NCBI GenBank assembly: GCA_016197225.1
Contig: JACPWC010000006.1
Coordinates: 1 to 64,000 of the forward strand
Length of the DNA: 64,000 nucleotides
Origin: Chloroflexota bacterium
GTDB lineage: Bacteria; Chloroflexota; Anaerolineae; Anaerolineales; VGOW01
Direction of reading: 5' to 3'
Shown here: positions 2,897 through 45,889 of the stretch, piece after piece
Layout of the letters: each line of letters opens with the position of its first letter
Numbering within the stretch: the stretch's first letter is position 1
Program-made: the position numbers and the translations under genes
The notes under the pieces: model-generated
Told to the model about the DNA's origin: nothing
Databases searched by the model: none
Seen by the model: the letters and a program-made list of their open reading frames with translations, nothing else

Positions 2897-2940
2897 AAAA
2901 AAGACTTCGGAAGTCTCCTCAGACTTCCGAAGTCTTTTTT
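2895..2940. terminator. Bidirectional Rho-independent terminator built from an AGACTTCGGAAGTCT repeat
   Basis: A perfect inverted repeat (A-run, AGACTTCGGAAGTCT, loop CCTC, AGACTTCCGAAGTCT, T-run) starts at the prs stop codon and serves both prs and the convergent gene at 2939-4900. Each arm is itself nearly palindromic. The same 15-mer pair recurs at 57590-57626. Confidence 0.92.
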
Positions 2941-4900
2941 AGTTATAGATGCCCTCGTATGGAATTGGGTCACCTGTGCCAATGTCCCAAAACGGATTAT
3001 AACTGCGTTCTGCAAAGATGTACCAAGCTGTTGCTCCAATATGTAAAGTATTAGGGGAGGTCCATCCATAGCCAGTCACCGCTCCCCCAAGGCAAGCAGA
3101 TACGATCCCCTTATTGTTATTGTTGGGCACAACAACTTGAACTTTACGCAGAACTTCCAAGAAGTCACTTGCTTTAGCAGTTTCATTTTTCATTTGGAAA
3201 GCTATAATCATGTGAGCCGTTCCCTCCCACCAACAACCCCTAGGTCTGTAATTAGGGTCCTTATATCTAGGATCGTCGCTACGCATGAAACTGAATAAGA
3301 ATCCTGTGCATGTTGGGCAACCAGGGCAGGAACTCACCTCCAAGTTGTTTTCGACCCAAGTGATTCCAGTGCCATATTTGCTTATCTCGCCCAAAGCCAT
3401 CAGACCCCAAGTCTGTGCGTCTTCGGGGATGGGGCTTCCATTCACAGATCCATTATTTAGTGTACCTGTCCAAAAATGGGCAAGTAATATTGTTGGATTC
3501 CACATACTTTGGACAAAGTTCTTGGCGTACATGGCACGTGTTCGCCAATCTGCATTACCCGTAGCTTCATATAACTTCATAAAGGCAACATAAACGTCGA
3601 TATTGTGTTCTGTGCCTTTCCACTCAAGCTTCTTGTAAGAATTTGTGCCTTCGTCAAAGAAATAGCCGCCAGTATAGCCGTCACATACTCCAGTGTTGCA
3701 AGTGTTGTCGTAGATCCACTCGCCCAAACTTTGGGCGGCAGTTAAATAAGTTGTTCCACCTTGAATCTCATAGTAGTCAAGCAGGGCTAACATAGCCCAT
3801 GCCATGTTTCCAGTGTTCGAGTCGAGGCTTGGTACGATGTAGGGAACAGGAATGCAAGCCTTTCCATCTGGATTCATTAGGTGTGATGCGCAATAGGCAT
3901 CGCGAAGGCGACCATCATTGAAAACGGGATCATTGTTTTGCGCTTCGATAAAGCTATCCGCTATGACTTTAGCTCTCTCCCAATCCTCAGATGTGCCTCG
4001 AGCCATAAAGGCTATCATTGCCAGAGCATTGTCGTATACCCACGCAGTATCGGCATCATTAGTCCCTCTATAACTCTCTAGGAGCCGATTCGTACTGCCA
4101 TTGCCATAAGCATCCATAACTTCATACAGATGATCATAGGCTAGACCCCCGCCTGGCATGATAAAGTTCCGAATTTCTGACTCGCTATATTGACCTGCTG
4201 TATTGTATGCCCTGACCCGCCAATAATAGATCGCTCCTCGAGTCAACGGGGTTTCTACAGTGTAGGTTGAAAAGGGCGTTCTGCCTCCTTGTCTCCGCCC
4301 CAAAACAGAACTAAATTGAGGGTTTGTGGAAATTGTGACTTCATAATAGGCAGGTGCAGAGTTGGAGTCGCTCCAATCTAATATTGGCATTGGACCTGTC
4401 AGCATTGGTGCACCATTAGTTGGCGAAGTTAACATCGGCACGCTCGGAGGGTTCGGGCTGTCGAAGTGTCCTACTCTTGACCAGGGGCTCGAGCCGCTAG
4501 AGTTATTAGCACGGACTCGCCAGAAGATCGTGGCATTGCGCGGCAAGTCGTTTGTTAAGGTGTGTGCTGATGATGCCATGTTCATACTCACTTCGCAAAA
4601 GGCAAAGCTCCGCGAAATTGAAACTTGAAGAGTGTAAGACAAAGCTCCAGACACGTTTCCCCAATCAAACAACGGACGTAGTATTGGCGGTGGATATAAC
4701 TGGTTGGGCGTGATGAGCTGTGGTGTAGAAAGTGCTGGATTTGGTTTATTGATTACAGCACAACTCACTGGCGAGTTTTGACTGTTGGCGAATCTTGAGA
4801 TTGTTTCTGAAGTGTCAGCTTGAACGGTTGATGGATCAAACCAACCGACACTAGCAATGAGCAAGCTCACGAGTGCAACTGAGCGAAGAAATTTGACCAT
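2939..4900 (-). CDS. Secreted protein: N-terminal fibronectin/Ig-like repeats plus six-hairpin (alpha/alpha toroid) domain
   Basis: 653 residues with a Sec signal peptide (positively charged start, hydrophobic stretch to about residue 28, then VQA). Residues about 55-245 hold two Ig/fibronectin-like repeats with LDWSDSNSAPAYYEV and YYWRVRAYN motifs and the signature LGRRQGGRT. The remaining 400 residues (YDHLYEVMDAYG onward) resemble six-hairpin glycosidase-like folds, with repeated helices such as NMAWAMLALLDYYE and TEHNIDVYVAFMKLYE. Catalytic residues cannot be assigned; a polysaccharide-active enzyme is possible. The start has a strong ribosome site (GAGGAGGAACAGC-ATG). DNA is clearly less GC-rich than its neighbours, suggesting separate ancestry. 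It shares its repeat type with the next three large genes upstream. Confidence 0.72.
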   Translation of the reverse strand: MVKFLRSVALVSLLIASVGWFDPSTVQADTSETISRFANSQNSPVSCAVINKPNPALSTPQLITPNQLYPPPILRPLFDWGNVSGALSYTLQVSISRSFAFCEVSMNMASSAHTLTNDLPRNATIFWRVRANNSSGSSPWSRVGHFDSPNPPSVPMLTSPTNGAPMLTGPMPILDWSDSNSAPAYYEVTISTNPQFSSVLGRRQGGRTPFSTYTVETPLTRGAIYYWRVRAYNTAGQYSESEIRNFIMPGGGLAYDHLYEVMDAYGNGSTNRLLESYRGTNDADTAWVYDNALAMIAFMARGTSEDWERAKVIADSFIEAQNNDPVFNDGRLRDAYCASHLMNPDGKACIPVPYIVPSLDSNTGNMAWAMLALLDYYEIQGGTTYLTAAQSLGEWIYDNTCNTGVCDGYTGGYFFDEGTNSYKKLEWKGTEHNIDVYVAFMKLYEATGNADWRTRAMYAKNFVQSMWNPTILLAHFWTGTLNNGSVNGSPIPEDAQTWGLMALGEISKYGTGITWVENNLEVSSCPGCPTCTGFLFSFMRSDDPRYKDPNYRPRGCWWEGTAHMIIAFQMKNETAKASDFLEVLRKVQVVVPNNNNKGIVSACLGGAVTGYGWTSPNTLHIGATAWYIFAERSYNPFWDIGTGDPIPYEGIYN

Positions 4901-4987: not shown

Positions 4988-5030
4988 CAAAAAAAGAACC
5001 GCCCTTCAGTGTTTCGTTGGAGGGCGGTTA
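4988..5030 (-). terminator. Rho-independent terminator of the beta-propeller gene
   Basis: On the minus strand AACCGCCCT and AGGGCGGTT form a stem followed by a run of seven T. It lies about 20 bp beyond the stop at 5049. Confidence 0.85.
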
Positions 5031-5048: not shown

Positions 5049-8000
5049 TCAAGGTACTACAAACGCCCGTCTGGCCGACCACGGCCCAAACTGCAACAGG
5101 CCGTCAGCCGAATAGTTCACCGCTCGCACGCGCCAGTAGTAAGCGTTGGATGCAAGCGCCAACTCGACCGTGTACTGCGAAACTGCTGTTCGCCCACCTC
5201 GCCCGCGCCCAAGCCAGGTGGCAAAGTTGTCGGTTGAAATTTGCACTTCGTAGTAGGCCGGGGCGGGAGTCAGGTCGTTCCAGTCCAGAGTCGGCGACCC
5301 CGTGACGGCGGCGCCGGCGGCAGGCGCAACCATCAGCGGGGCGCTGGTCGGCGGCGTGGCGCTGTCGAAGTGCCGAGTCCGCGACCAGTTGCTGGCGCCG
5401 AGCGCCCCGTTGGCTTTCACTCGCCAGAAGATGAGGACGCCACGCGGCAGGTCAACCGTTGGCACGTAAGCCGAAGCGCTGACGTTGAGGTTGACGAGCA
5501 AGGTGGCAAAGGTCTGGCTGGTGGAGATTTGAATGGAATACGAGTCTGCGCCGCTGACGTTGTTCCAGTCGAAGACCGGGCGAGTGCTGTTGGCGGCCAG
5601 GTTGGCAGGAGCGGGCGACTGGACGATGGTTTTGAAGGTAAAGGTGCTCGACCAGCCGAATGATTGATTCAGGTTGTTGTAAGCGCGAACGCGCCAGTAG
5701 TAGGTGACATCGGCGTTGAGCGGTGCGCCGGGCGTGAAGTCGGACGTTGTCAGTGTGGAGTCGTCAATCGTCGGCGACGAGAAGTTGCTGTTGTCGTCCA
5801 CCTGAAGCTGATAGTGATCCAGGTTGCCGGTCGAGTCATTCCAGTCGAGTGTCGGCGTGTAGTCAGTGGTGGTGGAATTATGGGCCGGGGCAACCAGGGT
5901 CGGGATGCCCGGCGCGTTGAAGAGGACGTTGGCCGTGAACAGGCCGCGCCCGTGCGTGGCGGCCACCAGAGTGTCGTTATCCAGCCAGAACAATTCGTCC
6001 ACCGAAGTGTTGGTGGGGCCGTCGTGCGGCAAGCCCCAGGTCGCGCCGCCGTCTTCACTGGCGAAGATGCCGAGTTCGGTGCCCACGTACAACCAGTCGG
6101 GGCTAAACGGCTGAATGACCAGACTGCGCACGGGCAGATCGGGCAAACCGACCGGCGAGTTGCCGCCAGTGATGTCGTTCCAGGTTGAGCCGCCATCGGC
6201 GGTGCGCCAGACGTTATCATCACTGAAGCCGCTGAAGGTGACGTAGACTTTGTTGTGGTCGGTCGCGTCAATCGTGATTCGCATGGCAATGCGGTTGGGC
6301 AGGCCGGGCGAGTTGGTGTCCACCTGAGTCCAGGTGGGCGAGGCCGCCGTGCCGTTGGCCGTCTTGTAAACGTTGCCGTTGTTGTGGCCGACCCAGATGA
6401 TGTCTGAGTTGCCGGGAGCGACGGCAATGGCGCTGATGTAACTGCCGGTGGATGATTTGATGGCCGACCACGACGGGCCGACGGTGAATGTGTTGGCCGC
6501 CTTGGCGTTGTTCGTCCGCCACAGCGACAGCCCGCCGCCCAGCAGTCGGTTGGCGTTGTTGGGGTCAAGAATGAAAGGCGCGATGAAATTGGCGTCACTG
6601 TTGAATGCGTCTTCGATCCGGTAAGGCGGATTCTTCCAGGCCCAGTCAAAACCGTCCCAGTATTGGCCGCTGATGTAGTCCGCCGACGCGCCGCCGTCGC
6701 TGCTGCGGTGAATATTCAGATAAACATATTCACCATAAAAGTAGTTGGGATCAACCGGGTCAGCCGCCGACCAGCCGCCATCGCCGCCCTCGGTCGTCCC
6801 CCAACTTTGACTGCCCGAGTAGAACAGTGTGCCGTTGTCCTGCGTGCCGCCGATGATGTCACCCGTCGTCGGGTTGCCCGCCGCCCCGTAGAACTGGGTG
6901 ATGCCCAGGTTGTTGTTCAACTCTGTCCAGCCGGTGGTATCGTCTACGGTGTAAACATTGGCTGTTTTATAGATGCCGCCGTCATTGCCAAAGAACACCG
7001 TGGTGTTCGATGTGCCGTTGAAACTTGGGTGTTGGACAATAACGTGATGGTCGGCGTGGGCCGAATAAGGATTGCAGTAGGGCGGGGCGCAATACCAGAT
7101 GCTGATCTGGCTCAAGGTGGCGCCGCCGTTCGTGCTTCGCCACAGGTCAATGCCGCCGACGATCAGTATGTTGGCGTTCGTCGGATCCACCCACAGGGCA
7201 TTGTCGTACCAGCCCTGATTGCCAAGATAGCTGTAGCCACTGCTGACTCCGTTATATATTGCGCCGCCGTCAGTGCTCTTCCAGATTTCGCCGCCGTTGC
7301 GGTTGACGGAGGCGTATACAATGGAAGGGTTGCTCGGCGCATAAGCAATTTCAACGCGGCCAGGGAAGCCCGACATGCCGGAGAACGTGGCGGCTGACCA
7401 GGATGCGCCGCCGTCAATGGAATACCAGGCCTGGCCGCCCGAGCCGCCGGCGACGGCCTTGTTGCTGTTGGAAGGATCGAAGTTTATATCGAACGCCGTT
7501 GAAAAAGATGTCAGGCTCCAGTTTGCGCCGTCGTCGGCGCTTCGCCAAATGCCGCTGCCGGTGGCGGCCAGAATCGTGGCCCCGTTCGGCGAGATGGCGA
7601 GACGGTTGACGTAGTAGAAGTTGGCGTCGTTGGTATTTGCCAGTTGAGTCCACGTCCCGCCGCCATTGGTCGTTTTGAAGACGCCTGCGCCGCGTATGGC
7701 GTCGCCGTTGAAAAAGCCCTCGCCCGTTCCGGCGTAGAGCGTATTCGAGTCGGTCGGGTCAATGATCAGCGCCGAGACGGCCATGTTGGCCATGAAGTCA
7801 TCCTGAATACTCCACGACACGCCGCCGTCAGTCGTCTTCCAGATGCCGCCGCTCACACTGCCGATCCACATCGTGTTGGGCGTGGTGGGATGAATGACGA
7901 TGGCCCGGATGCGGCCACCGATGTTGCCCGGCCCGATCCACGTCCACGAGCCGGGCGCGATCCCGGCCTCGGCCGCGCCCACTTCCTGTTCGGCCCGCAT

Positions 8001-8384
8001 CGCGTCCATTTGCGCTTTGGCCGCCAGCAAACCGTCCGGCGGAATAAAACCGTTCTCGTCCTGCAATTGCATATTGCGAAACTCAACGGCCTCGCCCGGA
8101 TGATCGGGCTTGGGGGTGTTGGCCCGGAAGATGGCCCGGTTGAGCTTGTCTTGTGGCATGGCGCAAATGTTGTCCGGCGTGAGGCCGCGCGCCCGGTGCA
8201 GGAGATGCAGAGTCTCCAGCGAGATGCCGCGATAGGCGGCAATTTGGGCTTCGGTCATTGGCTGGCCGTTGCAGGAGAACGTCTCGCCTGCGCCGAATTG
8301 CGAGAGGCCAATCATCAAGGCCACCAGCGCCGAAATCAACAGGGCTTGTGGGCGGCTGATCAGTTCAAGGGACGGTTTCTTCAC
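5049..8384 (-). CDS. Secreted BNR/sortilin-type beta-propeller protein with C-terminal fibronectin-like repeats
   Basis: About 1111 residues. The chosen GTG start is 6 nt after AAAGGAG and gives a clean signal peptide (KK, then a hydrophobic stretch ending GLSQFGAGE); an upstream GTG at 8408 overlaps the preceding stop but lacks this spacing. The central ~700 residues contain many BNR/Asp-box repeats (GGIWKTTDGGVSW, GVFKTTNGGGTW, SADDGANW, ASEDGGATW), the hallmark of sortilin/xyloglucanase-like propellers. Three Ig/fibronectin-like repeats follow, with YYWRVRAYN and LGRGRGGRT motifs, ending in AFVVP. Likely cell-surface or extracellular. Cotranscribed with the lipoprotein gene upstream, and therefore under the c-di-GMP riboswitch. 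Enzymatic function is not evident; adhesion or polymer binding is an inference. Confidence 0.85.
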   Translation of the reverse strand: MKKPSLELISRPQALLISALVALMIGLSQFGAGETFSCNGQPMTEAQIAAYRGISLETLHLLHRARGLTPDNICAMPQDKLNRAIFRANTPKPDHPGEAVEFRNMQLQDENGFIPPDGLLAAKAQMDAMRAEQEVGAAEAGIAPGSWTWIGPGNIGGRIRAIVIHPTTPNTMWIGSVSGGIWKTTDGGVSWSIQDDFMANMAVSALIIDPTDSNTLYAGTGEGFFNGDAIRGAGVFKTTNGGGTWTQLANTNDANFYYVNRLAISPNGATILAATGSGIWRSADDGANWSLTSFSTAFDINFDPSNSNKAVAGGSGGQAWYSIDGGASWSAATFSGMSGFPGRVEIAYAPSNPSIVYASVNRNGGEIWKSTDGGAIYNGVSSGYSYLGNQGWYDNALWVDPTNANILIVGGIDLWRSTNGGATLSQISIWYCAPPYCNPYSAHADHHVIVQHPSFNGTSNTTVFFGNDGGIYKTANVYTVDDTTGWTELNNNLGITQFYGAAGNPTTGDIIGGTQDNGTLFYSGSQSWGTTEGGDGGWSAADPVDPNYFYGEYVYLNIHRSSDGGASADYISGQYWDGFDWAWKNPPYRIEDAFNSDANFIAPFILDPNNANRLLGGGLSLWRTNNAKAANTFTVGPSWSAIKSSTGSYISAIAVAPGNSDIIWVGHNNGNVYKTANGTAASPTWTQVDTNSPGLPNRIAMRITIDATDHNKVYVTFSGFSDDNVWRTADGGSTWNDITGGNSPVGLPDLPVRSLVIQPFSPDWLYVGTELGIFASEDGGATWGLPHDGPTNTSVDELFWLDNDTLVAATHGRGLFTANVLFNAPGIPTLVAPAHNSTTTDYTPTLDWNDSTGNLDHYQLQVDDNSNFSSPTIDDSTLTTSDFTPGAPLNADVTYYWRVRAYNNLNQSFGWSSTFTFKTIVQSPAPANLAANSTRPVFDWNNVSGADSYSIQISTSQTFATLLVNLNVSASAYVPTVDLPRGVLIFWRVKANGALGASNWSRTRHFDSATPPTSAPLMVAPAAGAAVTGSPTLDWNDLTPAPAYYEVQISTDNFATWLGRGRGGRTAVSQYTVELALASNAYYWRVRAVNYSADGLLQFGPWSARRAFVVP

Positions 8385-8404
8385 AGGCAACTCCTTTGGC
8401 TGGG

Positions 8405-8839
8405 TCACTTCACTTCAACGGTTAGTTCCAGGCGCTGAGGCATGAGCGGGCAGGGCTGAGGCTGGTTGCAGGTCACAACACTCGTCAGCACGATCAACCC
8501 CTGACCGGCGGCAACGGCTTTGAAGCGCCAGCCGGCCTCGGTTGGCGTTGGCGATTCAAACAGGTCGGGGTCAAACTCCACTTGCCATTCAGAAGACGGA
8601 TCGGGTGACGAGATGACGAAACTCTGGCCCAGTCGAATCGTGATCGGTTGATTGAATTGATCCGGCCTGACGATGACATCCGGCGACGGGGTAGCGGCCA
8701 CTGAAGTGGGGGGCGGGGGAGGCGGCGTCACCGTTGGCAAAGGGGCGGGCGTGGAGGCCGCCGGTTGGCAGGCGGCGGCCAGCCATCCACTCAAAACGGC
8801 GATTAGCAGAGAAAAGTGACGTGGCCGATTCAACTGCAT
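8405..8839 (-). CDS. Small predicted lipoprotein with chagasin-like (I42) Ig-fold features
   Basis: 144 residues. A short charged start and hydrophobic segment end in LAAAC, a lipobox, so the cysteine at about 24 would be lipidated. A Pro/Thr-rich linker follows, then a ~95-residue beta-rich domain (TIRLGQSFVISSPDPSSEW and WRFKAVAAGQGLIVLTS) whose pattern recalls chagasin-type protease inhibitors or bacterial Ig folds; this is tentative. It is the first gene after the c-di-GMP riboswitch and terminator, and its stop lies inside the leader of the beta-propeller gene. An alternative TTG start at 8845 falls within the terminator T-run; neither start has a clear ribosome site. Confidence 0.7.
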   Translation of the reverse strand: MQLNRPRHFSLLIAVLSGWLAAACQPAASTPAPLPTVTPPPPPPTSVAATPSPDVIVRPDQFNQPITIRLGQSFVISSPDPSSEWQVEFDPDLFESPTPTEAGWRFKAVAAGQGLIVLTSVVTCNQPQPCPLMPQRLELTVEVK

Positions 8840-8843
8840 ATCC

Positions 8844-8880
8844 AAAAAAACGAAACGGGCTTGACATTGCCAGGCCCGTT
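8844..8880 (-). terminator. Intrinsic terminator acting as riboswitch expression platform
   Basis: Minus strand: AACGGGC, a 13-nt loop, GCCCGTT, then TCGTTTTTTT. It lies between the c-di-GMP aptamer and the lipoprotein start codon, the expected place for a ligand-controlled terminator. Confidence 0.8.
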
Positions 8881-8905
8881 GAAAACGTCAGATAAACAAG
8901 TTATC

Positions 8906-9008
8906 TGCGGCAACCTGGCGATCATAGCTGTGTAGCCGCCTTCGGTTCGGCCACAACTTTAGACCCATAGTTTTGCGCCCCCGGCTTTTGCCGGGTTTGC
9001 CTTTCACA
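8906..9008 (-). promoter_or_regulatory. Cyclic di-GMP-I (GEMM) riboswitch aptamer
   Basis: Read on the minus strand, the leader carries the conserved blocks in order: GGCAAACC, a GCAAAAG-capped hairpin (CCCGGC/GCCGGG), GGGCGCAAAAC, GGGTCTAAAGT, a second hairpin ending AGCTATGA, and GCCAGGTTGCCG. These match the c-di-GMP-I consensus, including the GCAAA and CTAA segments and the receptor-like GCCAGGTT. It is preceded by a good promoter and followed by a terminator, and precedes a lipoprotein and a secreted propeller protein, typical GEMM targets. Confidence 0.9.
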
Positions 9009-9033
9009 TTCAATTGGTAAACAAACTGCCCAG

Positions 9034-9063
9034 ACTTTACTGCAAAATTGCGGGCGCTGTCAA
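9034..9063 (-). promoter_or_regulatory. Sigma70-type promoter for the riboswitch transcript
   Basis: Minus strand TTGACA (9063-9058), 18-nt spacer, TAAAGT (9039-9034). Predicted start near 9027, about 20 nt before the aptamer. Confidence 0.65.
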
Positions 9064-9104: not shown

Positions 9105-11321
9105 CTACGGCACGCGGAAGCTCCGACTGCTCGACCAGTTGCTCAAGTGGCCTTCGGCGTTGACGGCGCGGACGCGCCAGTAGTAAGTGCCGGTGGTGAG
9201 CGCCGCCTCGACTGTGTACTGCGAAACCGCCGTTCGCCCGCCTCGCCCACGACCGAGCGTGGTGGTGAAGTACGGGTCGGTGGAGAGTTGCACTTCGTAG
9301 TGATCCACGTTGGGCGCGGAGTCGCTCCAGTCCAAAGTCGGCTGGCCGCTTGCCACCATCACGTTGTGGGCCGGTGTGAGCAGGGTTGGCACGCCCGGCG
9401 GGTTGGGGGTGTCGAAGTGGCGCACGCGTGACCAGGCGCTTGGCCCGTTTGCGCCAAGCGTCCTCACCCGCCAGAACAATAGCGTTCCCTTTGGCAAATC
9501 AGCCGTTGGCACGTAAGCCGAAGACGAGACGTTCATGTTCAGCACCAGCGCGGCAAAGTTCTGGTTGACGGCAACTTGCAGGTTGTACGAGGATGCGCCG
9601 CTGACATTACCCCAATCGAAGAGCGGGCGCAGGCTGATGGCCTGTTGAACGTTGCCGGGAGACGACAATAGCGGCGGCGCAAGCGCCGTGCGAAAGGCGC
9701 GGGCCGCCGACCAGGCGCTGGACTGCCCTGAGTTGCCGAAGACTCGGACGCGCCAGTAATAGCGCGTATTTGGATTCAAGGGCGCCGCAGGAATGAAGTG
9801 AGAAGAGGCAATGGTTTGATTCGCTGCCGGACTAACAAAGGCGTTGTCAACGGCGATCTGTATTTGATAGCGATCCGGAGCCGGGACCGAGTCGCTCCAA
9901 TCGAAGGTGGGCGTGTACTGAGTCAACAAAGCGCCCTCTGCCGGGGAAATAAGGGATGGGACGGGGAGGGGGTCGTTGTCTAAAATAGTGATTGTGGCCG
10001 GGTTGAGCGATCCCAGCGAGGCATTGGCCGGCGCGCTGAGCGTGACGATGAACGTTTCGTTGCCCTCGTAAACCGAGTCATCTTTAATTGGCACTGTGAA
10101 GCTCTGGCGGGTCTCGTTGGGAAGAAAGGTGAGCGTGCCTTTGGTTGGCAGGTAATCCGCCCCAATTTTTGCCGTGCCGTTGCTGGCGTCGTAGTTCACG
10201 CGGATGGTTTGGCCGGGGGCCTCGGACAAAACGGCGGTGACAGTGAGATCGCCCGCGCCTTCGTCAACGCTGTAAGCTGGACTGTCAAATTGCGCGTTGA
10301 CGCCGATCAAGAACTCATTGTTGGCCGCGTTCCAATGAGTGGCCAGGTAACTGTTCGCCGGCGGATTGGTGTTGAAGTAGTCATCGTGGTTGCAGTCGGC
10401 GATCCGGTCGTGGCTCGAATTTTGGCAGATGATTTGCATGGATGGAAAAAAAGGCTCGTCCGAATAACACATCAGGTCGTACTCATCCACACAGTGGCCG
10501 CCGCCGCTGGTGTGGGGGGCCGAAAGTTGCACCCCACCCAGGTTGTGCATCAACTCGTGGGCCGCTATTCCGCCTCCCCAGCATCCAACGTAAGTGGCCG
10601 CATAATCGGGGCCATTGTTGTTCAGGTTGGCGGCGCCGGGTTGCTCGTCCAGGTCCATAGTGGCCCAGCCGCAAAGGATATTCGAGTCGACGAAAATCAT
10701 ATACTTCCGATCAGCTCTGTTGTAGCCTAGAGCTTGAAGCTCGTTGACAGTGTTGGCAAAGGTGTCATCGCCTGCCGGGGAAAGTTGAACGTTTGGAATG
10801 ATCAGGTTGCAGTTCGCATCGTGAACAAACCGGATGCGCCTGACGCCGCCCGTCTCTGCCGCGCTGTTCTGATAGATAGCGTCTGCTTCTGCCGCCCACT
10901 GATGGAAAGAAGAGAGATAGGTGTTGTAACGGTCGGGGCGATCCGAAGCGCGAACGTACATCACCTGGGTGCGTTTGCCGCTGACGCCCTCGCCTTCACA
11001 CTGAATGCTCGCCGCGCTGACAAGATCGGCGATGGGCGACATGCTGACCGCAATGTCCACGCCGGGCGGGGCCGGATCAGGTCCATGCGTGCAATAATTT
11101 GTCCCTGCGATTTGGAAGGCTCCGGCGCAAGGCCCGTCGGTGGCCCATTCCAGACCGTCATGGATGACGTTGTGTTGTGGCTGGTTGGTGGGAAGGGGCG
11201 TTGCGCTTTGCGCTTGGGCCACAACCGTCTGGCGTCCGCCTAAATTTGAGAGAAGCAAATATAGCGTTATGGCCGCAACCAGAAACCTGGCGGGTTGTTG
11301 ATAATGATGCGAGTTGTGCAT
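9105..11321 (-). CDS. Secreted metzincin-like metalloprotease with Calx-beta and fibronectin-like repeats
   Basis: About 738 residues from the ATG at 11321. An in-frame TTG at 11369 would add 16 residues before the signal peptide. Residues 1-40 are a signal peptide ending near VVAQAQS. The catalytic region contains AAHELMHNLGG, an HExxHxxG zinc site, followed by HCVDEYDLMCY, where the Met could be the metzincin Met-turn. A Calx-beta domain follows (VDEGAGDLTV ... YEGNETFIVTL ... ITILDND). The C-terminal third is three Ig/fibronectin-like repeats with YYWRVRVFG and LGRGRGGRT, ending SFRVP. Expected to act outside the cell; the substrate is unknown. The third metal ligand of classic metzincins (His or Asp after HNLGG) is not obvious, so activity is an inference. 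Confidence 0.8.
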   Translation of the reverse strand: MHNSHHYQQPARFLVAAITLYLLLSNLGGRQTVVAQAQSATPLPTNQPQHNVIHDGLEWATDGPCAGAFQIAGTNYCTHGPDPAPPGVDIAVSMSPIADLVSAASIQCEGEGVSGKRTQVMYVRASDRPDRYNTYLSSFHQWAAEADAIYQNSAAETGGVRRIRFVHDANCNLIIPNVQLSPAGDDTFANTVNELQALGYNRADRKYMIFVDSNILCGWATMDLDEQPGAANLNNNGPDYAATYVGCWGGGIAAHELMHNLGGVQLSAPHTSGGGHCVDEYDLMCYSDEPFFPSMQIICQNSSHDRIADCNHDDYFNTNPPANSYLATHWNAANNEFLIGVNAQFDSPAYSVDEGAGDLTVTAVLSEAPGQTIRVNYDASNGTAKIGADYLPTKGTLTFLPNETRQSFTVPIKDDSVYEGNETFIVTLSAPANASLGSLNPATITILDNDPLPVPSLISPAEGALLTQYTPTFDWSDSVPAPDRYQIQIAVDNAFVSPAANQTIASSHFIPAAPLNPNTRYYWRVRVFGNSGQSSAWSAARAFRTALAPPLLSSPGNVQQAISLRPLFDWGNVSGASSYNLQVAVNQNFAALVLNMNVSSSAYVPTADLPKGTLLFWRVRTLGANGPSAWSRVRHFDTPNPPGVPTLLTPAHNVMVASGQPTLDWSDSAPNVDHYEVQLSTDPYFTTTLGRGRGGRTAVSQYTVEAALTTGTYYWRVRAVNAEGHLSNWSSSRSFRVP

Positions 11322-11339
11322 GGTTTTACTGCTTCGGAT

Positions 11340-11353
11340 TTTATACTCCTTTT
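11340..11353 (-). promoter_or_regulatory. Shared AAAAGGAGTATAAA motif upstream of the metalloprotease gene
   Basis: The identical 14-mer occurs at 16201-16214 upstream of the other large secreted gene. It could be a promoter element with TATAAA as -10, or a ribosome site for an alternative start. Confidence 0.35.
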
Positions 11354-11360
11354 GAGCAGT

Positions 11361-11401
11361 TGAAAACAAAACCGCCCTCCTGCGAAATATAAGAGGGCGG
11401 T
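11361..11401 (-). terminator. Rho-independent terminator after the VWA/lipase gene
   Basis: ACCGCCCTC and GAGGGCGGT form a 9-bp stem on the minus strand, followed by TTTGTTTTC. It separates the 1569-aa gene from the metalloprotease gene. Confidence 0.85.
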
Positions 11402-11426: not shown

Positions 11427-14400
11427 TTATGGCACCCGGAAGCTCCGACTGCTCGACCAGTTGCTGAACTGCCCCTGGGCGTTGACGGCTCGCACGCGCC
11501 AGTGGTAAGTGCCGGATGGCAAGGCCACTTCGGGCGTGTACATCGAAGCAGAAGTTCTGCCGCCTCGCCCACGACCGAGCACGGTGGCGAATGTCTCGCT
11601 CGTGGAGAGTTGTACTTCGTAGTGATCCGCGCCGGGCGACGAGTCGCTCCAGTCCAGAGTCGGCTGTGTTGACGTGGCGGCATTGTTGGCGGGTGAGAGC
11701 AGGGTGGGCACGCCTGGCGGGCTGGGGGTGTCGAAGTGGCGAACGCGGGACCAGGCGCTCGGCCCGTTCGGGCCGTTGGCTCGGACGCGCCAGAAGAGAG
11801 TTGCGCCTTTCGGTAAGTCGCTAGCTGGCACATGAGCCGACGGTGTAACGTTGAGGTTTAGCGCCAACGTATTGAAATTCTGATCTGTAGAGACTTGAAT
11901 ACTGTATGACGTAGTGCCAGTTGTGGGTGTCCAGTCAAAGACGGGCCGCAGAAGTGGTGTAGTACCGAAATTGCTTGTGGGGAATGACTCTGGCGGTAGC
12001 ATTGCAGCGTGGAACAATCGAGCAGGTGACCATGCCCCAAACTGACCAACACTGTTGACGGACCGAGCACGCCAGTAATAGGCGGTGTCGGGATTAATAG
12101 GATCGTTCAGTGTATAACTTGAATCAGCAACCGTTTCGTCTCGTACCATTGAAAGGAAAGCACTGTCTGTGGCAATTTGTATCTGGTAATGATCAGGTGG
12201 CGGAGTCACATCATTCCAATCAAGAGTGGGCGTGTAGATTGTGACAACGCCATTATGAGCAGGCAAAGCAAGGCTTGGAACCTTGAGAGGAATGCTGAAG
12301 TCTACAACCGCAATTGATTCATCGTGGATTGTTATTCTAGCTGGATTGGGCGAACCAGATGCGTCGCCATTCCAGCCTGCAAACGCGTAGCCTGTGTCTG
12401 CGGCGGCAGTCAGAGCAACGGTAGTGCCTGCGGCATACTGTGAGCCACTATTGCAATTCGGGGGCGGGTTAGCTGTAATCGTGCCGCCGATCGGCGGGTT
12501 TGCGGCCAGAGCTAGCGTGTAACAATGAGCGGCAAAGTTTTGGAAGTTGTAAGCCGCCGTCGTCCACAGATTCTGGGCTTGCCAGATGGTAGGAACACCT
12601 GCATTTTGTTGATCGGCAATGGTTAAATTGGTCAACTTGTAAGGGCCATTCTTGCCGCTTTGTCCGATTTCGTCGCCGCTAAAAGGTAGAGTTATAAAGC
12701 TGTTCCCAAGGGGCAAAGTAGTAGAGGTAACGCTGTGCGCTACCACAGTTGTGCCAGAGACCAGATCCGCCGACAGCAAATAACTACCTGCTTGAAGCGC
12801 ATTAAGGCCAACGCCTACATCCAGCCTTTCATATTTATCGTTGCCATCAGCATTAACAGGGCTGTCCGAATACGAGCCGACCAATTGCACAGTTTGCGGC
12901 GCAACGGCGATCAGGCTATCCACTTGCCGGGCATAAGCAGTGCCGGCATCACTCCCTTCAGCGATAACGCTGAGGCCAAGATAGCCAGGAATATTGGGGA
13001 TGGTATATGCGCCCTTATAAACGCCATTGCCCTGGCCACTTAAGGTGATTGTGTCGGCGAAGACACCCGGACGGAAAATTTTGGCGGTTGCGGTAGCGCC
13101 GTTGAGGCCTAAATTACCGTTTTTTAAAGTAGCTGTGATGGTGGCGGTTTCTCCAACTGAGTACACTAGCTTGTCTACGGTTACATCTAAGACACGAGGT
13201 GATACTACTAAGGAACTAATAGCATAATCTGTTCCGCTTGTTCCAACATCTCCGCTGGCAATCTTTAGAATATAAATGCCAGGACTGCTTGCGTTGATAT
13301 TATATGTAGCAAATAGTTGCGAAGGGCCAATAGTGTTTTCCATATACTGAACTTCGTTTGGATGAGCGGCGACGTAAACCGGATCAATAATTGTGCCTGA
13401 GGGGCTTTCCAGGGTGAAATTGATATTACCGGCGTCCCAAACTAGAGTGAATTCGCTATGCTCATTACTGTCAACGGGTGCAAGGCGAGTTACTAATTGC
13501 CCACTTGATATATGACCTGAGATGACAGGAATCTGAGATTTGGGATTAGACGTAGCTTGGGCCTCTGCTAATCCTGAGGTAACTACTGGGCAATTCCCAT
13601 TTTTCTTTCCTAATATTTGCTGTATGCATTTGTAGGTGTCTGTTAATGTGGAATTGTCCCGTAAAGACTGATTGAAATAGCTTGGGAACCAGTCGCGAAG
13701 TCCAACAACTACTGTGTAACATTTATCAGTAAGTGGAATGCAAATATTCTTTTCGCCTACTTCTGCACTTGAATGACTCGCTCTTATTTTGTGCGTCATT
13801 ACATTTGATCCCTTCTGTATAGCAGGGATTGGCGGTAGAATGCCCATATAGAGGTTGCCTATGGCGCTTTGGGCACCAACTGCGCCATCATGAGGTCCTT
13901 CTGTCAGGTAAAGGCCAATAGTTTCTATCGGGTTAGAATTCCCAGCGATGAAATTGTATTGAACGAAAAGATCGCGAAATTTGTAAGTGTCATTAAATTC
14001 AAAAATTGAAAAAATCCCGAATTCACAGGCTGCATCCTGCTTGGTTCCTGCGGTACAGTAAAACTCCCCAAATGGAGTTCCAGCATGCGGTGCACCTAGA
14101 GTGATCAATCGAGAAACGACGAAAGGATCTCTTGGGTAAAGTTCAAAGCTTTCAATGTAAGCTCGGCTTACCAGGCCCCCCATGCTGTGAGCAATCAAAG
14201 TAAACTCATCAACTCCAAAATTGTTGTGAATAAATGTTAGTTGGTTCTGTAAGCATACTGCGTTTATGCTAATAAAAGGTGTCCAGTTGTGTCCAGTTGA
14301 TACATGGGCAATCCAGACATCGTATCCATCTGCACGGAGAAAATCGGGAAATGCTCCAAAGTCGTTTCTGATAGTGCCGTACTGATTATCTGATGGCCAA

Positions 14401-16136
14401 TTTTGATCTCCTAGGTTGTTGTCCGTAACTCTGTATGGTTCGTAGTAAGTGCCGTCACCTCGTAGACAGCGATCATAATTGTCGGGGCTTATCTTTAAGT
14501 GACCATGCCACCCATGCACTAACACTACAACGGGTCTAAGCACAGTAAAGTTCTGCTCTCCTTGATCTGGCGGTACGTTAATCGTAAGCGACGGGTCCGA
14601 AAAGGAAAGACCTTCCTTATTCGGCGTAATTGTGTACGTGCCTGCCGGCAGACCCTTGAAAGCATAGTAACCGTTACTATCTGTAATGGCAGTATGCCTA
14701 TGACCGTCTGTGAGGATGACTCCAGAAAGGTGAGGGTTATTAGGATCCGTTACACGACCAGAGATAGAATAGGTTTCGATTGATCCCAGCGCATTAATAA
14801 TCGCCTCTGCAACATCATCGCCTGTGCTACCAGTATTCTGCGTGCTGCCTCCAGTGATAGATGCTAAATAATCAACTTCCGGGATCACGCCTGCGCCACC
14901 GGGCACTAGCCCAATAACGATTGCCTGATTTTCCAAGAGGTCGTTAACTACTGTATTGACATTAGGTCCCGGATAGCCGAACGTGTCTATAGGGTCATGG
15001 AATGGAGCATCTGTAGCTAACAAGATGATGCGTAGGACTCCTGCTCTGAAACTAAGTTGTTGACCAATTGGGGTGTCACCAGAGTCCAGGCAATCTCCAT
15101 CGCCATTGCTATCGATGCAAGGATGGGATGGCGTCATAAGGTAATGCAAAGCCGCGTACTGGCTTTCTGGCCAATCTGAGCCGCCACCAGCAGTAAGAGC
15201 ATTTACTCCTGAAACAAATGCAGTTCGAGAATTGGTTAAGTTGGCTCGTCGTCGGTACACCCAGTCATCAGGCCCTCCCCAAAAATAAGGGTAATATCCG
15301 TAGTCTCGAAAGCCAGCTACTCCCATTCTGAACCCGGCAATACCAATGTCAACAACACTGTCCCATATTTGAGGAGCGAGCCTCTTAAGGGTATCAACAT
15401 CATCCCACATACTACCGGTTTCGTCTTGCAATAGAGCAATCTCAAGAGGGACTGTAAGGGCGACGGGAGCAAACTCAGTCGTGACTTGCAGTAAGCCCCC
15501 ACCCGGAGTACCAAAATCAGCTATTTCAATGTAATAGCTTTTGTTGGCCAGCACAGCGAATTCAATTTGAGACTGGAGTGTTCCGGAAAAGTCATCATTG
15601 CATGCTTTGCTCTTGAGAGCGCCACGTATGCCGCTGAAGGCAGCCGCGACTGTGTCATAGTTGCTTCCAAAGGTGTTGACGCGAATATGGCCTGGAACGG
15701 GAGCCAAAATCCGATACCAAACTGTATTAGAGTTTTTTCCATAACCGCAACCCATAATTGGGTCATCAGAGGCAACTGTTGCACCTGTGGTGTCGAGTAG
15801 AAATGCAGATGGAAAATCTGAGATAACAATGGCCGAGTTGAAGTTGTCGTTTGGTGGAATAGCCAATGCGCCAACTTCTGGTGTAGGCCGATTCTCAAGT
15901 TCGGCTTTGTCGGGGGCCAGGGTTGGGGTAGCCGTAGGCTCAGATGGGGTGGGTGTCGCTTGAGGGTCGTCCGTTGGCTGGATATCTATTGGATTGGTTG
16001 CAATATCAGTGCTAGTAGCCTGATCTTCGGCCTGAGCCGCTGGCGCATTGTTAAGCCCAAAACTGGATAACATAAGGCTAAATAACACAATCAGCGAAAA
16101 TACTTTGCCAAATTGTTGATAGTATGAGCGATTCAT
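11427..16136 (-). CDS. Secreted multidomain protein: PPC-like, VWA, CarboxypepD_reg-like, alpha/beta-hydrolase lipase, fibronectin-like repeats
   Basis: 1569 residues, with ribosome site GGAGG 6 nt before the ATG. Domains in order: signal peptide (to about 37, ending AAQAE); Pro/Thr-rich linker; PPC-like beta domain (NDNFNSAIVISDF ... NTVWYRI, 95-220); von Willebrand A domain with MIDAS-like DETGSM (230-450); carboxypeptidase-regulatory-like domain (SISGRVTDPNNPHLSG, 455-530); alpha/beta hydrolase with VLVHGWHGH oxyanion region and AHSMGG nucleophile elbow (535-850); beta-sandwich domains including a divergent VYSVGETATITATL region; a NPPIGGTITANPPPNC bacterial repeat; and C-terminal fibronectin-like repeats with LGRGRGGRT ending SFRVP. 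Probably an exported, surface-associated lipase/esterase. The middle is AT-richer than flanking genes, consistent with mosaic origin. Confidence 0.82.
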   Translation of the reverse strand: MNRSYYQQFGKVFSLIVLFSLMLSSFGLNNAPAAQAEDQATSTDIATNPIDIQPTDDPQATPTPSEPTATPTLAPDKAELENRPTPEVGALAIPPNDNFNSAIVISDFPSAFLLDTTGATVASDDPIMGCGYGKNSNTVWYRILAPVPGHIRVNTFGSNYDTVAAAFSGIRGALKSKACNDDFSGTLQSQIEFAVLANKSYYIEIADFGTPGGGLLQVTTEFAPVALTVPLEIALLQDETGSMWDDVDTLKRLAPQIWDSVVDIGIAGFRMGVAGFRDYGYYPYFWGGPDDWVYRRRANLTNSRTAFVSGVNALTAGGGSDWPESQYAALHYLMTPSHPCIDSNGDGDCLDSGDTPIGQQLSFRAGVLRIILLATDAPFHDPIDTFGYPGPNVNTVVNDLLENQAIVIGLVPGGAGVIPEVDYLASITGGSTQNTGSTGDDVAEAIINALGSIETYSISGRVTDPNNPHLSGVILTDGHRHTAITDSNGYYAFKGLPAGTYTITPNKEGLSFSDPSLTINVPPDQGEQNFTVLRPVVVLVHGWHGHLKISPDNYDRCLRGDGTYYEPYRVTDNNLGDQNWPSDNQYGTIRNDFGAFPDFLRADGYDVWIAHVSTGHNWTPFISINAVCLQNQLTFIHNNFGVDEFTLIAHSMGGLVSRAYIESFELYPRDPFVVSRLITLGAPHAGTPFGEFYCTAGTKQDAACEFGIFSIFEFNDTYKFRDLFVQYNFIAGNSNPIETIGLYLTEGPHDGAVGAQSAIGNLYMGILPPIPAIQKGSNVMTHKIRASHSSAEVGEKNICIPLTDKCYTVVVGLRDWFPSYFNQSLRDNSTLTDTYKCIQQILGKKNGNCPVVTSGLAEAQATSNPKSQIPVISGHISSGQLVTRLAPVDSNEHSEFTLVWDAGNINFTLESPSGTIIDPVYVAAHPNEVQYMENTIGPSQLFATYNINASSPGIYILKIASGDVGTSGTDYAISSLVVSPRVLDVTVDKLVYSVGETATITATLKNGNLGLNGATATAKIFRPGVFADTITLSGQGNGVYKGAYTIPNIPGYLGLSVIAEGSDAGTAYARQVDSLIAVAPQTVQLVGSYSDSPVNADGNDKYERLDVGVGLNALQAGSYLLSADLVSGTTVVAHSVTSTTLPLGNSFITLPFSGDEIGQSGKNGPYKLTNLTIADQQNAGVPTIWQAQNLWTTAAYNFQNFAAHCYTLALAANPPIGGTITANPPPNCNSGSQYAAGTTVALTAAADTGYAFAGWNGDASGSPNPARITIHDESIAVVDFSIPLKVPSLALPAHNGVVTIYTPTLDWNDVTPPPDHYQIQIATDSAFLSMVRDETVADSSYTLNDPINPDTAYYWRARSVNSVGQFGAWSPARLFHAAMLPPESFPTSNFGTTPLLRPVFDWTPTTGTTSYSIQVSTDQNFNTLALNLNVTPSAHVPASDLPKGATLFWRVRANGPNGPSAWSRVRHFDTPSPPGVPTLLSPANNAATSTQPTLDWSDSSPGADHYEVQLSTSETFATVLGRGRGGRTSASMYTPEVALPSGTYHWRVRAVNAQGQFSNWSSSRSFRVP

Positions 16137-16380: not shown

Positions 16381-19300
16381 ATGTTCAAAAATATCATCAA
16401 AGCCATCGGCGGCGACCCCAACAAGCGGGATGTCCGCAAATACACCGAAGTTGTAGATCAGATCAACGACATGTCCCGGCAGTTTGAGGACATGAGCGAC
16501 GACGCCCTGCGTGCCAAGTCGGATGAACTGCGGGGGAAAGTTCAGGCGGAACTGGGCGAGATTCCCGACGACGCCAGGCTCGAAGAGCGCAAGAAAGCGA
16601 CCCAGGCAACCCTCGACTCGGTTCTGCCCGAAGCCTTTGCCCTGGTGCGCGAGACCTCGGCCCGCACCATCGGCCTGCGGCACTACGACGTGCAACTCAT
16701 CGGCGGCATGGTGCTCCACGCCGGCCGCATCGCCGAGATGCAAACCGGCGAAGGCAAGACGCTCGTCGCCACCTTGCCGCTCTACCTCAACGCCCTCACC
16801 GGGCGCGGCGTTCACCTCGTCACCGTCAACGACTATTTGGCAAGGCGCGACGCCAAGTGGATGGGGCCGCTCTACCACGCCCTCGGCCTCAGCGTCGGCA
16901 TCTTGCAGGACGCCTCGCGCACCGAGAACGCCCGCAAAGCTTTCGTCTTCGACCCGGCTCGCGACAGTTCGCAGGAAGACTCGCGCTTCATGCGCATCGT
17001 CGAACGCGGCGAGTCTTACGCTTGCGATATCGTCTACGGCACCAACAACGAATTCGGCTTCGACTACCTGCGCGACAACATGGCCACTTCGCTGGCCGAG
17101 CGCCGCCAACGCCAGCGCTATTTTGCCATCGTGGACGAAGTGGACAACATCCTGATTGACGAAGCCCGCACCCCGCTCATCATCTCCGGCCCGTCGGGCG
17201 AGAGCGCGGCCCTGTATCAAGAGTTGGCTCGCGCCGTGAAAGTCCTCAAGCCCGAACACTACGAAATTGACGAGCGCGGGCGAAGCCTTGCCCTCAACGA
17301 CGAAGGCTACCAAAAAATAGAAGAGGCGCTGGGCCGCCCCCTGCGTGACCCCGACCGCCCCGAAGACCTGACGCCGGAGCAGGCGACGACCCAGGCGCAT
17401 CTCGAACAGGCCATGCGCGCCGAGTTCATCTTCAAGAAGAACAAGGATTATCTGGTGCAGGGCGGCCACGTGGTGATCGTGGACGAACACACCGGGCGGG
17501 TGATGCCGGGCCGCCGCTGGAGCGACGGCCTCCACCAGGCCGTGGAGGCCAAAGAAGGCGTGCCGGTTCAACCGGAGAACGTCACCTACGCCACCATCAC
17601 CCTGCAAAACTTCTTCCGCCTCTACGACAAGCTGGCCGGCATGTCCGGCACGGCCCTGACCGAGGCCGAAGAGTTCGACAAAATTTACAAGCTCGACGTG
17701 GTGCCTATTCCCAAGAATGTCGAGTACCGGGTGCAACGCGATCCGAATCTCATCGAGCGCGAGATCAGAGAGAACGGCTACAAGTTCTCCTACCTGGCCC
17801 GCAAGTCCGACCCCGACAAGCCGGTCTGGTATCGCCGCAAGGATTACCCCGACTCGGTCTTTCGCACCGAAGAGTCCAAACTGCGGGCCATCATGTGGGA
17901 CGCGCTCTGGCGGCACGTGCCCGGCCAGCCCTTGCTCATCGGCACCACCTCGGTTGAGTCCTCGGAGCAGCTCTCGAAACGATTCAGCGCCGAGCCGCTC
18001 CGCCGCCTGGCCCTGGTGAATTTGCTCCGCGACCGCTGGTTCAAAGCCAACAACGCCGAAGAGGACGGTCGGGCCGTCCCTGCTTTACAACCGTTCAACA
18101 AGCCCCTGGACTCGCTCAACCCGTCCGACATGCGCCCGCTGGCGAAAGAGTTGAACATGACTCTCAACCCAATCGCCGACGAAAACCTGACCCGTCTCTG
18201 TGAACTGCTCTTCCTGGACTCGGGGCACAAGGATCGACTCCGGGCGGTGCTGGAGAGCGGCATCAAGCACCGCGTCCTCAACGCCAAGAAGCACGACGAA
18301 GAGTCGCAGATCATCCTCGGCGCGGGCAAGCTGGGCGCGGTGACCATTGCTACCAACATGGCCGGGCGCGGCGTGGACATCAAACTCGGCGGCGACTTTG
18401 ACGAGACGATGCTGATCGGAGTCAACCGGGTGCTGGAACGAGCGGGCCATGCCAACGCCTTTGAAATGCGCCACGACGATCGTCTGGCCGCCCTCGACAA
18501 GATCAGCCCTGATGATTACAGCATCTACGCCGAGCAAGTGGTCGCCTTCCGCCAGCACATGGCCGACGAGCAAACCGTGCGCGCCATCGGCGGCCTGCAC
18601 GTCGTCGGCTCCGAGCGGCACGACGCTCGCCGCATTGACAACCAGCTTCGGGGCCGCGCCGCCCGTCAGGGCGACCCCGGCTCCAGCCGCTTCTACCTCT
18701 CGCTCGAAGATGATCTCATGCGCCGCTTCGGCGGGGCCAACGTTTCCGGTTTGATGGAACGCCTCACTTCCGTGCTCAAGGTAGACGACGCGCTCCCCAT
18801 CGAACACGGCATTGTGGATAAAACCGTCGAAGGCTCACAACAACGAGTCGAGGGCTACAACTTCGACATCCGCAAGCACCTGCTGGAGTACGACGACGTG
18901 CTCAACCAGCAACGCACCAAGATTTACGAACAGCGCGACCGCATCTTCACCAAAGAAGATTTGACCGACGACATTGACGAGATGCTGGTGGCCGAAGTGG
19001 CTCGCCGGGTGGACATGAACAGCGCCGACGAAGACCGCTGGAAACTGCTGGCCTGGCTGGACGAAGTTCAGCCGGTCATCCAGCGCGCCGACGGCTCGCT
19101 CTACTTCCCGTTCAGCATCGAATTGATCCTCAGCCGGTTCGACGGTCTGGCCGGCCCAGCTCAAGTGAAAGATGAACTGCTGACCGTCGCCAAAGGCGCA
19201 TCCGACTCGGCCCGCGATCAACTGGTGACGATTGTTGAGACTCAACTGGAGACGTATCCGGCGCGAGTGAAAGAGCGCGTGGATGCCAAACGTGAAGCCG

Positions 19301-20472
19301 CCGACAACGCCTTCGATAACGCCCGCGACCTGGCCCGCGATCAGGGCCAGCCGCTGGAACTTCGTAATGTGACTCGCGAAATGCTCGAAGCCGCCGAGAT
19401 TTCCAATTTGCCTCTGCGCAAAGAATTTTTCGACGGCCAGACTGATCGCACGCTCAAGAAAGCTGTAGGCGACGCCATCGAAGCCGCCATCGGCCAGGAC
19501 GCCGCCATCCGCTTTTTGAAATGGGCGGCGGCGCGAATCGGCCTTGATCTAAAAGTGACGCTTCCCGCGTGGTCGGAATTTGATTGGGATGGCTTCGGCG
19601 ATCTGATTCGCGAAGCCGTCATCGCCGCTTACGATGCCCGCACCGAACGCCACCTGTCCGAAATCTCAACCTTGCTCGACGAACGTCTGCGAAGCGCCGC
19701 TGACGTCGCCCACGACGCGCTGGGCCGCTTATTGCTCGATATGGCCGTCGGCCAGTCGGTGACGTTTAATAAGAAGACGCACCGCCGGGAGACGCGACTC
19801 AACCAGCGCTTTCCATACGTGTATTACGCCGCCGGGCGCCTCGAAGATCGCAAACGCGACGATTTGCTGAAAGACATTCTGGCTCATTTGCGAACGGCGC
19901 AGGAGGAACAGCAACTGTTCTGGGGCGAGAGCGAGTTGACCCGCCTTAGCCCGGCCCGCCCTGCCGAGCTTGACGCCGACACCCAGGTTGGCCTGCGGCG
20001 GGCGCTGGGCGAGGCCGACTTTGAAGCCATCGCTTCACAAAATTTGGGAAGCCTCAACGGCACGAGCGATCTGCGCGACCGCATCCGCAGTGAACTGGGC
20101 CGCCAACTGGCGCACGGCCTGCACCGCCAACTCATGCTCGGCGTGAGCGGCCAACTGTGGGTGGACTACTTGACGACGATTGAGGGGCTGAGGACTTCGA
20201 TCTCGCTCGAAGCCTACGCCCAGCGCGACCCGCTCATTGCCTACAAGAGCAAGGCCTTCGACCTCTTCCAGCAACTGCTGGTAGATATGCGGGCCGGGGT
20301 GGTGGGCCGCCTCTTCACTTATCGCCCGCGCAAGCTCACCGAAGTTCGGGCCGAGGTGGAGCGCCAGGCAAGCGAAAGCCCCAAGCGGGCGTTGGGCCGC
20401 AACGACCCGTGCTGGTGCGGGAGCGGCAAGAAGTATAAGAATTGCCACATGGCGGCGGACGGGAAGAAATAG
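16381..20472 (+). CDS. secA: Protein translocase ATPase SecA (long form)
   Basis: 1363 residues, much longer than the ~850-950 typical of SecA. It drives preproteins through SecYEG. Conserved features: [19 protein letters not shown] start; Q-motif and Walker A [10 protein letters not shown] near residue 120; [36 protein letters not shown] (DEAD-type motif II with the preprotein cross-linking domain following); [45 protein letters not shown] motif VI region; and a C-terminal SEC-C zinc motif [16 protein letters not shown]. Extra length lies partly in NBD2 (around 540-610) and mainly in the helical scaffold/wing half (about 830-1250). The gene's neighbours include many exported proteins. Strong terminator downstream. 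Confidence 0.96.
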   Translation: [1363 protein letters not shown]

Positions 20473-34815: not shown

Positions 34816-34828
34816 AATGCAAAAGGCT

Positions 34829-34922
34829 ATCAGCTTCCCTCCGCCGGCATTATCCGGATCAGGTTCGCGGGTCGCAGAGTGGGTCTCTGCCTCTCAGCCT
34901 GGACGTTACCAAGCTCCCCGTG
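34829..34922 (-). promoter_or_regulatory. TPP (THI-box) riboswitch aptamer
   Basis: Minus strand shows GGGGAGC, GGCTGAGAGGC, GAGACCC, CGAACCTGATCCGGATAATGCCGGCG and GAGGGAAGC in order, the canonical thiamine-pyrophosphate aptamer. It precedes thiN and the thiamine importer. Confidence 0.97.
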
Positions 34923-34941
34923 GTTGGTTTGTTATGCCTGC

Positions 34942-45001: not shown

Positions 45002-45889
45002 TTACTCGGCGTCGCTCCGCCGGGCCTCGGCGGCTTGCTCGGTGATCTCGCGAATGTCGGAGAAATCGTTGGCCGAGGTGACAATGCCAACCTTCAGAAG
45101 CATGAGCGGCATTTGCTGGTCGGCGTTGTTGTCGCCTTTGGTGATGATAAAACCGCGCTCGCGATCAATAAAGGAATAGTGGGTCTTGATCTCTTCGGCG
45201 AAGCGGGCCTTGAGCCGGGCGCGGATGGCGGCGGCATTGGACTCGCCGGCGATGACGATGAAGTTGTCGCCGCCGGGGTGGCCGATAAAGTCGTTGGGCG
45301 TGCCGTGTTGATCCACCACTTCGCGAATGAGCAGGGCCGTAAACCGCAAGACCTCGTCGCCGGCCACAAAGCCGTACACTTCCTTGAACGGATCGTAGGT
45401 CTCGATTTTGCAATCCATGTAAGCCCAGTCGGCGGCGCGCATAATCTTGCGCAGTTCATCCTCGATCAGCCGGCCCGAGGGCAGGCCGGAGCGCGGGTCG
45501 GAGAGGTTTTGCAGTTGCGAACGGGTGATGGCGTTTTGCACGCGGAGCTTAAGCTCTTCGATGTCGAACGGTTTGGTGATGTAATCGTCCGCGCCCAACT
45601 CCAGCCCGGCAATGCGGTCGGAGCGCTCGTCCTTTTGCGTCAGAAAAATGATGGGGATGTGACTGGTGCGGGTGGTCTGCCGCAGTTGGCGGCAGACGGC
45701 GTAGCCGTCCATGTCGGGCAACATGATGTCGAGCACGATCAAATGAGGCAATTGCTGGCGGGCAAGCGTCATGGCCTCGCCTCCGCGCGGAGCTATATTC
45801 ACGTCGTACCCCTGGCCGCTGAAATAAATCCTCAGCATGTTCGAAATGTCGAAGTCGTCTTCTACGATCAGGATTCTGCCTTTAGCCAT
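45002..45889 (-). CDS. Response regulator with degenerate GGDEF domain
   Basis: 295 residues from the ATG at 45889, placed 7 nt after GGAGG. The N-terminal receiver has EDD, LDIMLPDMDGY with the phosphoacceptor Asp, and TKPFD. The second domain begins DPRSGLPSGRLIEDEL (like D-LTGLPNR) and carries HPGGDNFIVIAG where an active diguanylate cyclase has GG(D/E)EF. The Glu-to-Asn change predicts loss of cyclase activity; it may bind GTP or c-di-GMP or serve as a scaffold. First gene of the kinase transcription unit. Confidence 0.88.
   Translation of the reverse strand: MAKGRILIVEDDFDISNMLRIYFSGQGYDVNIAPRGGEAMTLARQQLPHLIVLDIMLPDMDGYAVCRQLRQTTRTSHIPIIFLTQKDERSDRIAGLELGADDYITKPFDIEELKLRVQNAITRSQLQNLSDPRSGLPSGRLIEDELRKIMRAADWAYMDCKIETYDPFKEVYGFVAGDEVLRFTALLIREVVDQHGTPNDFIGHPGGDNFIVIAGESNAAAIRARLKARFAEEIKTHYSFIDRERGFIITKGDNNADQQMPLMLLKVGIVTSANDFSDIREITEQAAEARRSDAE

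Follow-up and report, generated by a model that had tools for sequence, protein, structure and literature searches.

The ligand contacts of c-di-GMP-I riboswitches have been described in Vc2, where G20, A47 and C92 contact c-di-GMP; the 27-nt spacing between G20 and A47 is common to Vc2, Vc1 and Bc1 (PMC4744006, PMC11218506). Cd1 of the C. difficile flgB operon exerts OFF control via premature termination in response to c-di-GMP (PMC5386303). Bc2 of Bacillus thuringiensis is also a c-di-GMP-I riboswitch, but an ON switch, and its terminator lies beside the start codon of the cap gene, directly before a surface-protein coding region (PMC4933901). The locus analyzed here is part of a 64,000-nt stretch of DNA, referred to below as the window. 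It shares with Cd1 the aptamer class, the use of transcription termination and the predicted sign of control, but it comes from another lineage and precedes other target genes. Its terminator is placed as in Bc2, whereas its predicted sign is the opposite.

Leader Layout and Promoter

On the minus strand of the window, a -35 box, a -10 box, an aptamer, a small hairpin, a terminator, the ATG of a lipoprotein gene and the ORF of a propeller protein follow one another (Table 1). An earlier reading made from the letters alone (the sequence-only reading) had proposed a compact row of promoter, aptamer, terminator and lipoprotein gene with a T-run abutting the start codon. This arrangement is borne out, with the promoter at 9063-9034, the aptamer at 9010-8905, the terminator at 8880-8854, seven Ts at 8850-8844 and the ATG at 8839-8837. 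The promoter is sigma-70-like; its boxes are 18 nt apart and match the consensus at 10/12 positions, and one such promoter was seen where shuffles gave an expectation of 0.1. The leader lies in a gap of ~265 nt behind the upstream gene, whose end is at 9105, and thus has its own promoter. Transcription would start near 9027. In folds of transcript prefixes, the leader sequence GUUUGUUU (about 9026-9019) can pair with GGCAAAC (9001-8995), a conserved stretch of the aptamer; this pairing hinges on the true transcription start.

Table 1. Features of the riboswitch leader and of the operon behind it.
Feature	Position	Strand	Basis or remark
-35 box TTGACA	9058..9063	-	Promoter scan
-10 box TAAAGT	9034..9039	-	Promoter scan
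c-di-GMP-I (GGC subtype) riboswitch aptamer	8905..9010	-	Covariance models RF03167, RF01051
P3 3' strand GCCAGGUU, proposed antiterminator 5' strand	8912..8919	-	Folding and comparative
Small hairpin CAGAUAA/UUAUCUG	8889..8907	-	Prefix folding; inside the loop closed by the antiterminator
GGCCUGGC (within the terminator 5' arm and loop), proposed antiterminator 3' strand	8869..8876	-	Folding and comparative
Intrinsic terminator	8844..8880	-	Stem 8880-8874 / 8860-8854, T-run 8850-8844
Lipoprotein gene	8405..8839	-	144 codons (8839-8408) and stop to 8405; lipobox ..LAAAC; domain with predicted chagasin-like fold at residues 52-143
Secreted BNR/Sortilin-Vps10 propeller with C-terminal Ig/fn3 repeats	5049..8384	-	ORF open from 8408
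Intrinsic terminator closing the two-gene operon	4989..5029	-	Read from sequence: AACCGCCCT ... AGGGCGGTT, then T-run

Identity of the Aptamer

Judged by covariance models, the element is a c-di-GMP-I riboswitch aptamer. It scores 64.3 bits with RF03167 (c-di-GMP-I-GGC; gathering score 59, E 7e-13, at 9010-8905 on the minus strand), 72.4 bits with RF01051 (gathering score 35) and 83.1 bits with a model made from the order's own aptamers. The GEMM-type aptamer of the sequence-only reading, for which a covariance search had been suggested, is thereby confirmed. The equivalents of G20, A47 and C92 are a G at aptamer position 10, an A at 37 and CC at 101-102; they are strongly conserved over the order's aptamers, and the first two keep the 27-nt spacing of Vc2, Vc1 and Bc1. 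Helices P2 and P3 are both present and show compensatory changes among relatives. The mark of the cGAMP riboswitch (GEMM-I, G20A) is an A at position 20. The window has a G there, not an A, which speaks against an identity as a 3',3'-cGAMP riboswitch.

The element departs from the two models in its length (106 nt vs. 80 model positions), with a long P3 extension, and in its P2 loop, which is CAAAAG (tetraloop AAAA) in place of GNRA. At the same place, 167/192 aptamers of the order have GAAA and a few others lack a GNRA loop; given this departure, the affinity for c-di-GMP may be reduced. A GNRA tetraloop with its receptor distinguishes the type I sub-type of c-di-GMP-I (PMC11218506), and with its AAAA loop the window aptamer was not assigned to it.

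The genome encodes about 14 HD-GYP domains and several GGDEF domains, two of them with an apparently intact GGEEF; synthesis of c-di-GMP in the host is therefore very likely. A domain search of the genome found no EAL phosphodiesterases, and breakdown of c-di-GMP thus seems to rest on HD-GYP proteins. Within the window there is also a partial, weak GGDEF-like match (35 bits, 45200-45502, minus strand). Elsewhere in the window we noted a TPP riboswitch (RF00059, 61 bits, 34819-34930, minus strand) and a SecA of 1363 aa (16381-20472, plus strand), much above the usual length, with inserts within the DEAD-like and P-loop domain matches.

Terminator, Proposed Antiterminator and Predicted Sign of Control

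The terminator has a 7-bp stem (AACGGGC/GCCCGUU) and a 13-nt loop, followed by UCGUUUUUUU. A generic terminator scan misses the hairpin at 8880-8854 because it allowed loops only up to 8 nt. Eight pairs, two of them G-U, are possible between GCCAGGUU and GGCCUGGC, and in folding calculations this antiterminator clashes with all 7/7 P3 pairs tested. The question raised earlier, whether aptamer and terminator exclude each other, can thus be answered: the two are linked via the P3 3' strand. In prefix folding, which mimics transcription, the minimum-energy structure contains the antiterminator when the prefix ends at 8866, 8860 or 8855. Without ligand, antiterminator and terminator are at -62.0 and -63.9 kcal/mol for the prefix ending at 8852, and at -68.1 and -67.9 kcal/mol for that ending at 8841. 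The modeled energies suggest that, once the whole terminator has been made, no more than about 2 kcal/mol separates the two unliganded states, which are thus poised for the ligand to decide. The enforced aptamer fold lies ~11-16 kcal/mol above the unconstrained ensemble in nearest-neighbor energies, which count neither tertiary contacts nor ligand.

We consider it likely that the element is a c-di-GMP-I riboswitch acting as a transcriptional OFF switch. The sign can be predicted, since the antiterminator draws on a strand of P3 in the aptamer itself; that the ligand binds, in which direction it switches and that the cell benefits at all are what we infer. RNA polymerase would start near 9027 and make the aptamer. 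Without c-di-GMP, the P3 3' strand (8919-8912) would pair with the emerging terminator arm and loop (8876-8869), and this antiterminator would use up the terminator 5' arm and permit read-through to the lipoprotein and propeller genes. Once c-di-GMP is bound, the P3 strand would be held in the aptamer, the terminator hairpin would be favored and would form, and transcription would end in the T-run, shortly ahead of the ATG. The sequence-only reading had offered the hypothesis that c-di-GMP turns the surface pair on or off. A riboswitch with a termination platform does precede the operon, in a genome with cyclases and phosphodiesterases, and the sign can be narrowed to a predicted OFF.

Comparison Across the Order

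We found c-di-GMP-I aptamers in 156/301 sampled genomes of the order and in 58/298 sampled genomes of the class. The order's aptamers were located with a model built from 19 loci, and terminators were found behind 111/192 distinct aptamers. If the P3 3' strand is used in both aptamer and antiterminator, its sequence has to be complementary to two others, its partner in P3 and the arm of the terminator. Pairing of the P3 3' strand with the terminator 5' arm has an energy of -15.2 kcal/mol for a locus's own arm, -13.6 kcal/mol for swapped arms and -7.8 kcal/mol for shuffled arms (111 pairs). The difference between own and swapped arms corresponds to z -8.2, and to z -8.1 for the 98 pairs left after near-duplicate removal; this swap test treats loci as independent though they are related, so its p-values are too small, and we rely on direction and localization. 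The signal is also seen in single bases. GCCAG co-occurs with CCUGG, as does GCCAA with CUUGG (47/3/1/8, Fisher 6e-7), i.e., a G or A in the aptamer matches a C or U in the terminator, and the same aptamer base co-varies within P3 (C-G 135, U-A 37, U-G 36, mismatched 4). In a scan with a sliding 12-nt window, the signal falls on the 3' strand of P3 (z -6.4, -7.3), with no comparable window beyond the strand and its flank. A cruder measure, the longest run of pairs, gave no difference between own and swapped terminators in 34 loci (p 0.27).

The same P3-strand pairing was null in 41 terminators of other orders of the class (z -0.4), a result that serves as a methodological control and confines the claim to the one order. 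The loci of other orders (L235-L294) show a weak complementarity of the terminator to the aptamer 3' boundary (z -2.9), several with CUUCGG opposite CCGAAG, and these orders may use another platform. For the order studied here, the comparison leads us to favor, with some reserve, one standard c-di-GMP-I platform in which the P3 3' strand doubles as antiterminator. The module would be placed as an OFF switch before many unrelated secreted or surface genes and, in the window, before a lipoprotein-propeller operon whose counterparts in relatives have no such module. Our literature search found no paper joining c-di-GMP, riboswitch, antiterminator and Chloroflexi; most subscription papers were outside the search, and the platform may have been described before.

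Judged by sequence, the order's aptamers mostly precede genes for secreted proteins: a rough signal-peptide test, a heuristic with false positives, was positive for 125/144 distinct downstream genes vs. 16/58 background ORFs. A Pfam search of 94 downstream genes returned sortases (13), subtilases (10), response regulators and beta-helix proteins. The genome of the window has two further aptamers, one before a glycosyltransferase cluster (C57) and one before a subtilase-like gene (C56). Tandem c-di-GMP-I aptamers, the first with A and the second with G at position 20, occur at 13 loci (including L065, L066, L032, L088, L136, L122 and L120), many before sortase-like genes. The members of such pairs may prefer different cyclic dinucleotides.

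The Lipoprotein-Propeller Operon

Sequence searches matched the lipoprotein to nothing in Pfam or NCBIfam and to nothing significant in the PDB. Its structural model has a pLDDT >80 over most of residues 51-143, and the best structural match of residues 52-143 is EhICP2 (Z 11.2, rmsd 3.0 over 90 residues; Foldseek E about 2e-6), with chagasin (Z 9.1) and further Ig-like domains (Z about 9) next in line. The predicted fold thus resembles that of EhICP2 and chagasin, cysteine-protease inhibitors of family I42. The inhibitory loops of the chagasin family are NPTTGF-like and RPW-like. By sequence and alignment, both are absent from the window lipoprotein, which has DPSSEW at the NPTTGF site and a cysteine-containing loop for RPW; it further differs from chagasin in lacking a Pfam match and in being lipid-anchored. 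An orthologous lipoprotein (L043) has GFTW. The earlier label of chagasin-like is therefore right at the level of the predicted fold only, and any inhibition would be putative. The earlier suggestion that the lipoprotein inhibits or anchors the propeller or the neighboring metalloprotease is not supported so far, the inhibitor motifs being absent.

The second gene agrees with the ~1100-aa BNR propeller that had been read there: the ORF 5049-8408 encodes 1119 aa with Sortilin-Vps10/BNR repeats (Pfam, E 8e-21), and it probably starts at GTG 8384, behind AAAGGAG (8397-8391). The gene upstream of the leader (9105-11369, minus strand) encodes a zinc-metalloprotease-like motif (HELMHNLGG) together with Calx-beta and Ig repeats. 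This protein, the "neighboring metalloprotease" of the sequence-only reading, matches no Pfam peptidase family. Four adjacent genes for secreted proteins on the minus strand (2939-4900, 5049-8408, 9105-11369 and 11427-16136) have a common Ig/fn3 module, and the C-terminal part of the propeller is 54% identical to the part encoded at 9108-9995.

The lipoprotein-propeller pair recurs in two other genomes (G277 and G271), and a third (G213) has the propeller but not that lipoprotein immediately before it. We found no aptamer upstream of the orthologous pair or propeller in any of the three; a search of the loci L042, L043 and L210-L212 for aptamers upstream of orthologs of the pair gave none; among more distant propeller relatives, no aptamer lies near 9/13. 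Riboswitch control of this operon is thus not widely kept, and the riboswitch would have been either gained in the lineage of the window or lost in relatives.

Alternative Explanations

The OFF sign has to be weighed against an ON switch in which c-di-GMP promotes read-through and the terminator is the default, as in Bc2 (PMC4933901). The layout of that c-di-GMP-I element is similar, with its terminator beside the start codon, and terminator and antiterminator are close enough in energy in the longest prefixes to make the default uncertain. An ON switch is nevertheless unlikely: the bound aptamer would have to disfavor the terminator, but the strand that can disrupt the terminator here belongs to P3, which is used in the ligand-bound fold.

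The identity of the ligand could also be questioned, since 22/~210 matches in the order are G20A aptamers and the tetraloop of the window aptamer is AAAA, not GNRA. It is nonetheless quite improbable that the aptamer senses another cyclic dinucleotide (3',3'-cGAMP), or that its binding of c-di-GMP is too weak to have an effect, given the G at position 20, the intact A47 and C92 and the canonical GGEEF cyclases of the genome. We give very little credence to the view that aptamer and terminator are independent, whether as a fixed attenuator or as a decaying riboswitch before an operon that does not need one. The aptamer-less orthologous operons of G277 and G271 would fit this view, as would the fact that the window aptamer is the weakest of the genome's three by RF01051, but the antiterminator co-varies order-wide and is kept in the window, including its two G-U pairs, the promoter is intact, and no ligand-contact base has been lost.

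Implications

The window riboswitch would be another case of c-di-GMP-I, and the order-wide P3 antiterminator is the most informative part of the analysis. The analysis gives a sign and a base-level mechanism, both testable, for control of a surface operon by c-di-GMP. This order is rich in riboswitches, and such wiring is seen again all across it, mostly before secreted proteins, including sortases and subtilases. If the predicted OFF sign is true, high c-di-GMP would remove these surface proteins, opposite to the usual expectation for the biofilm matrix.
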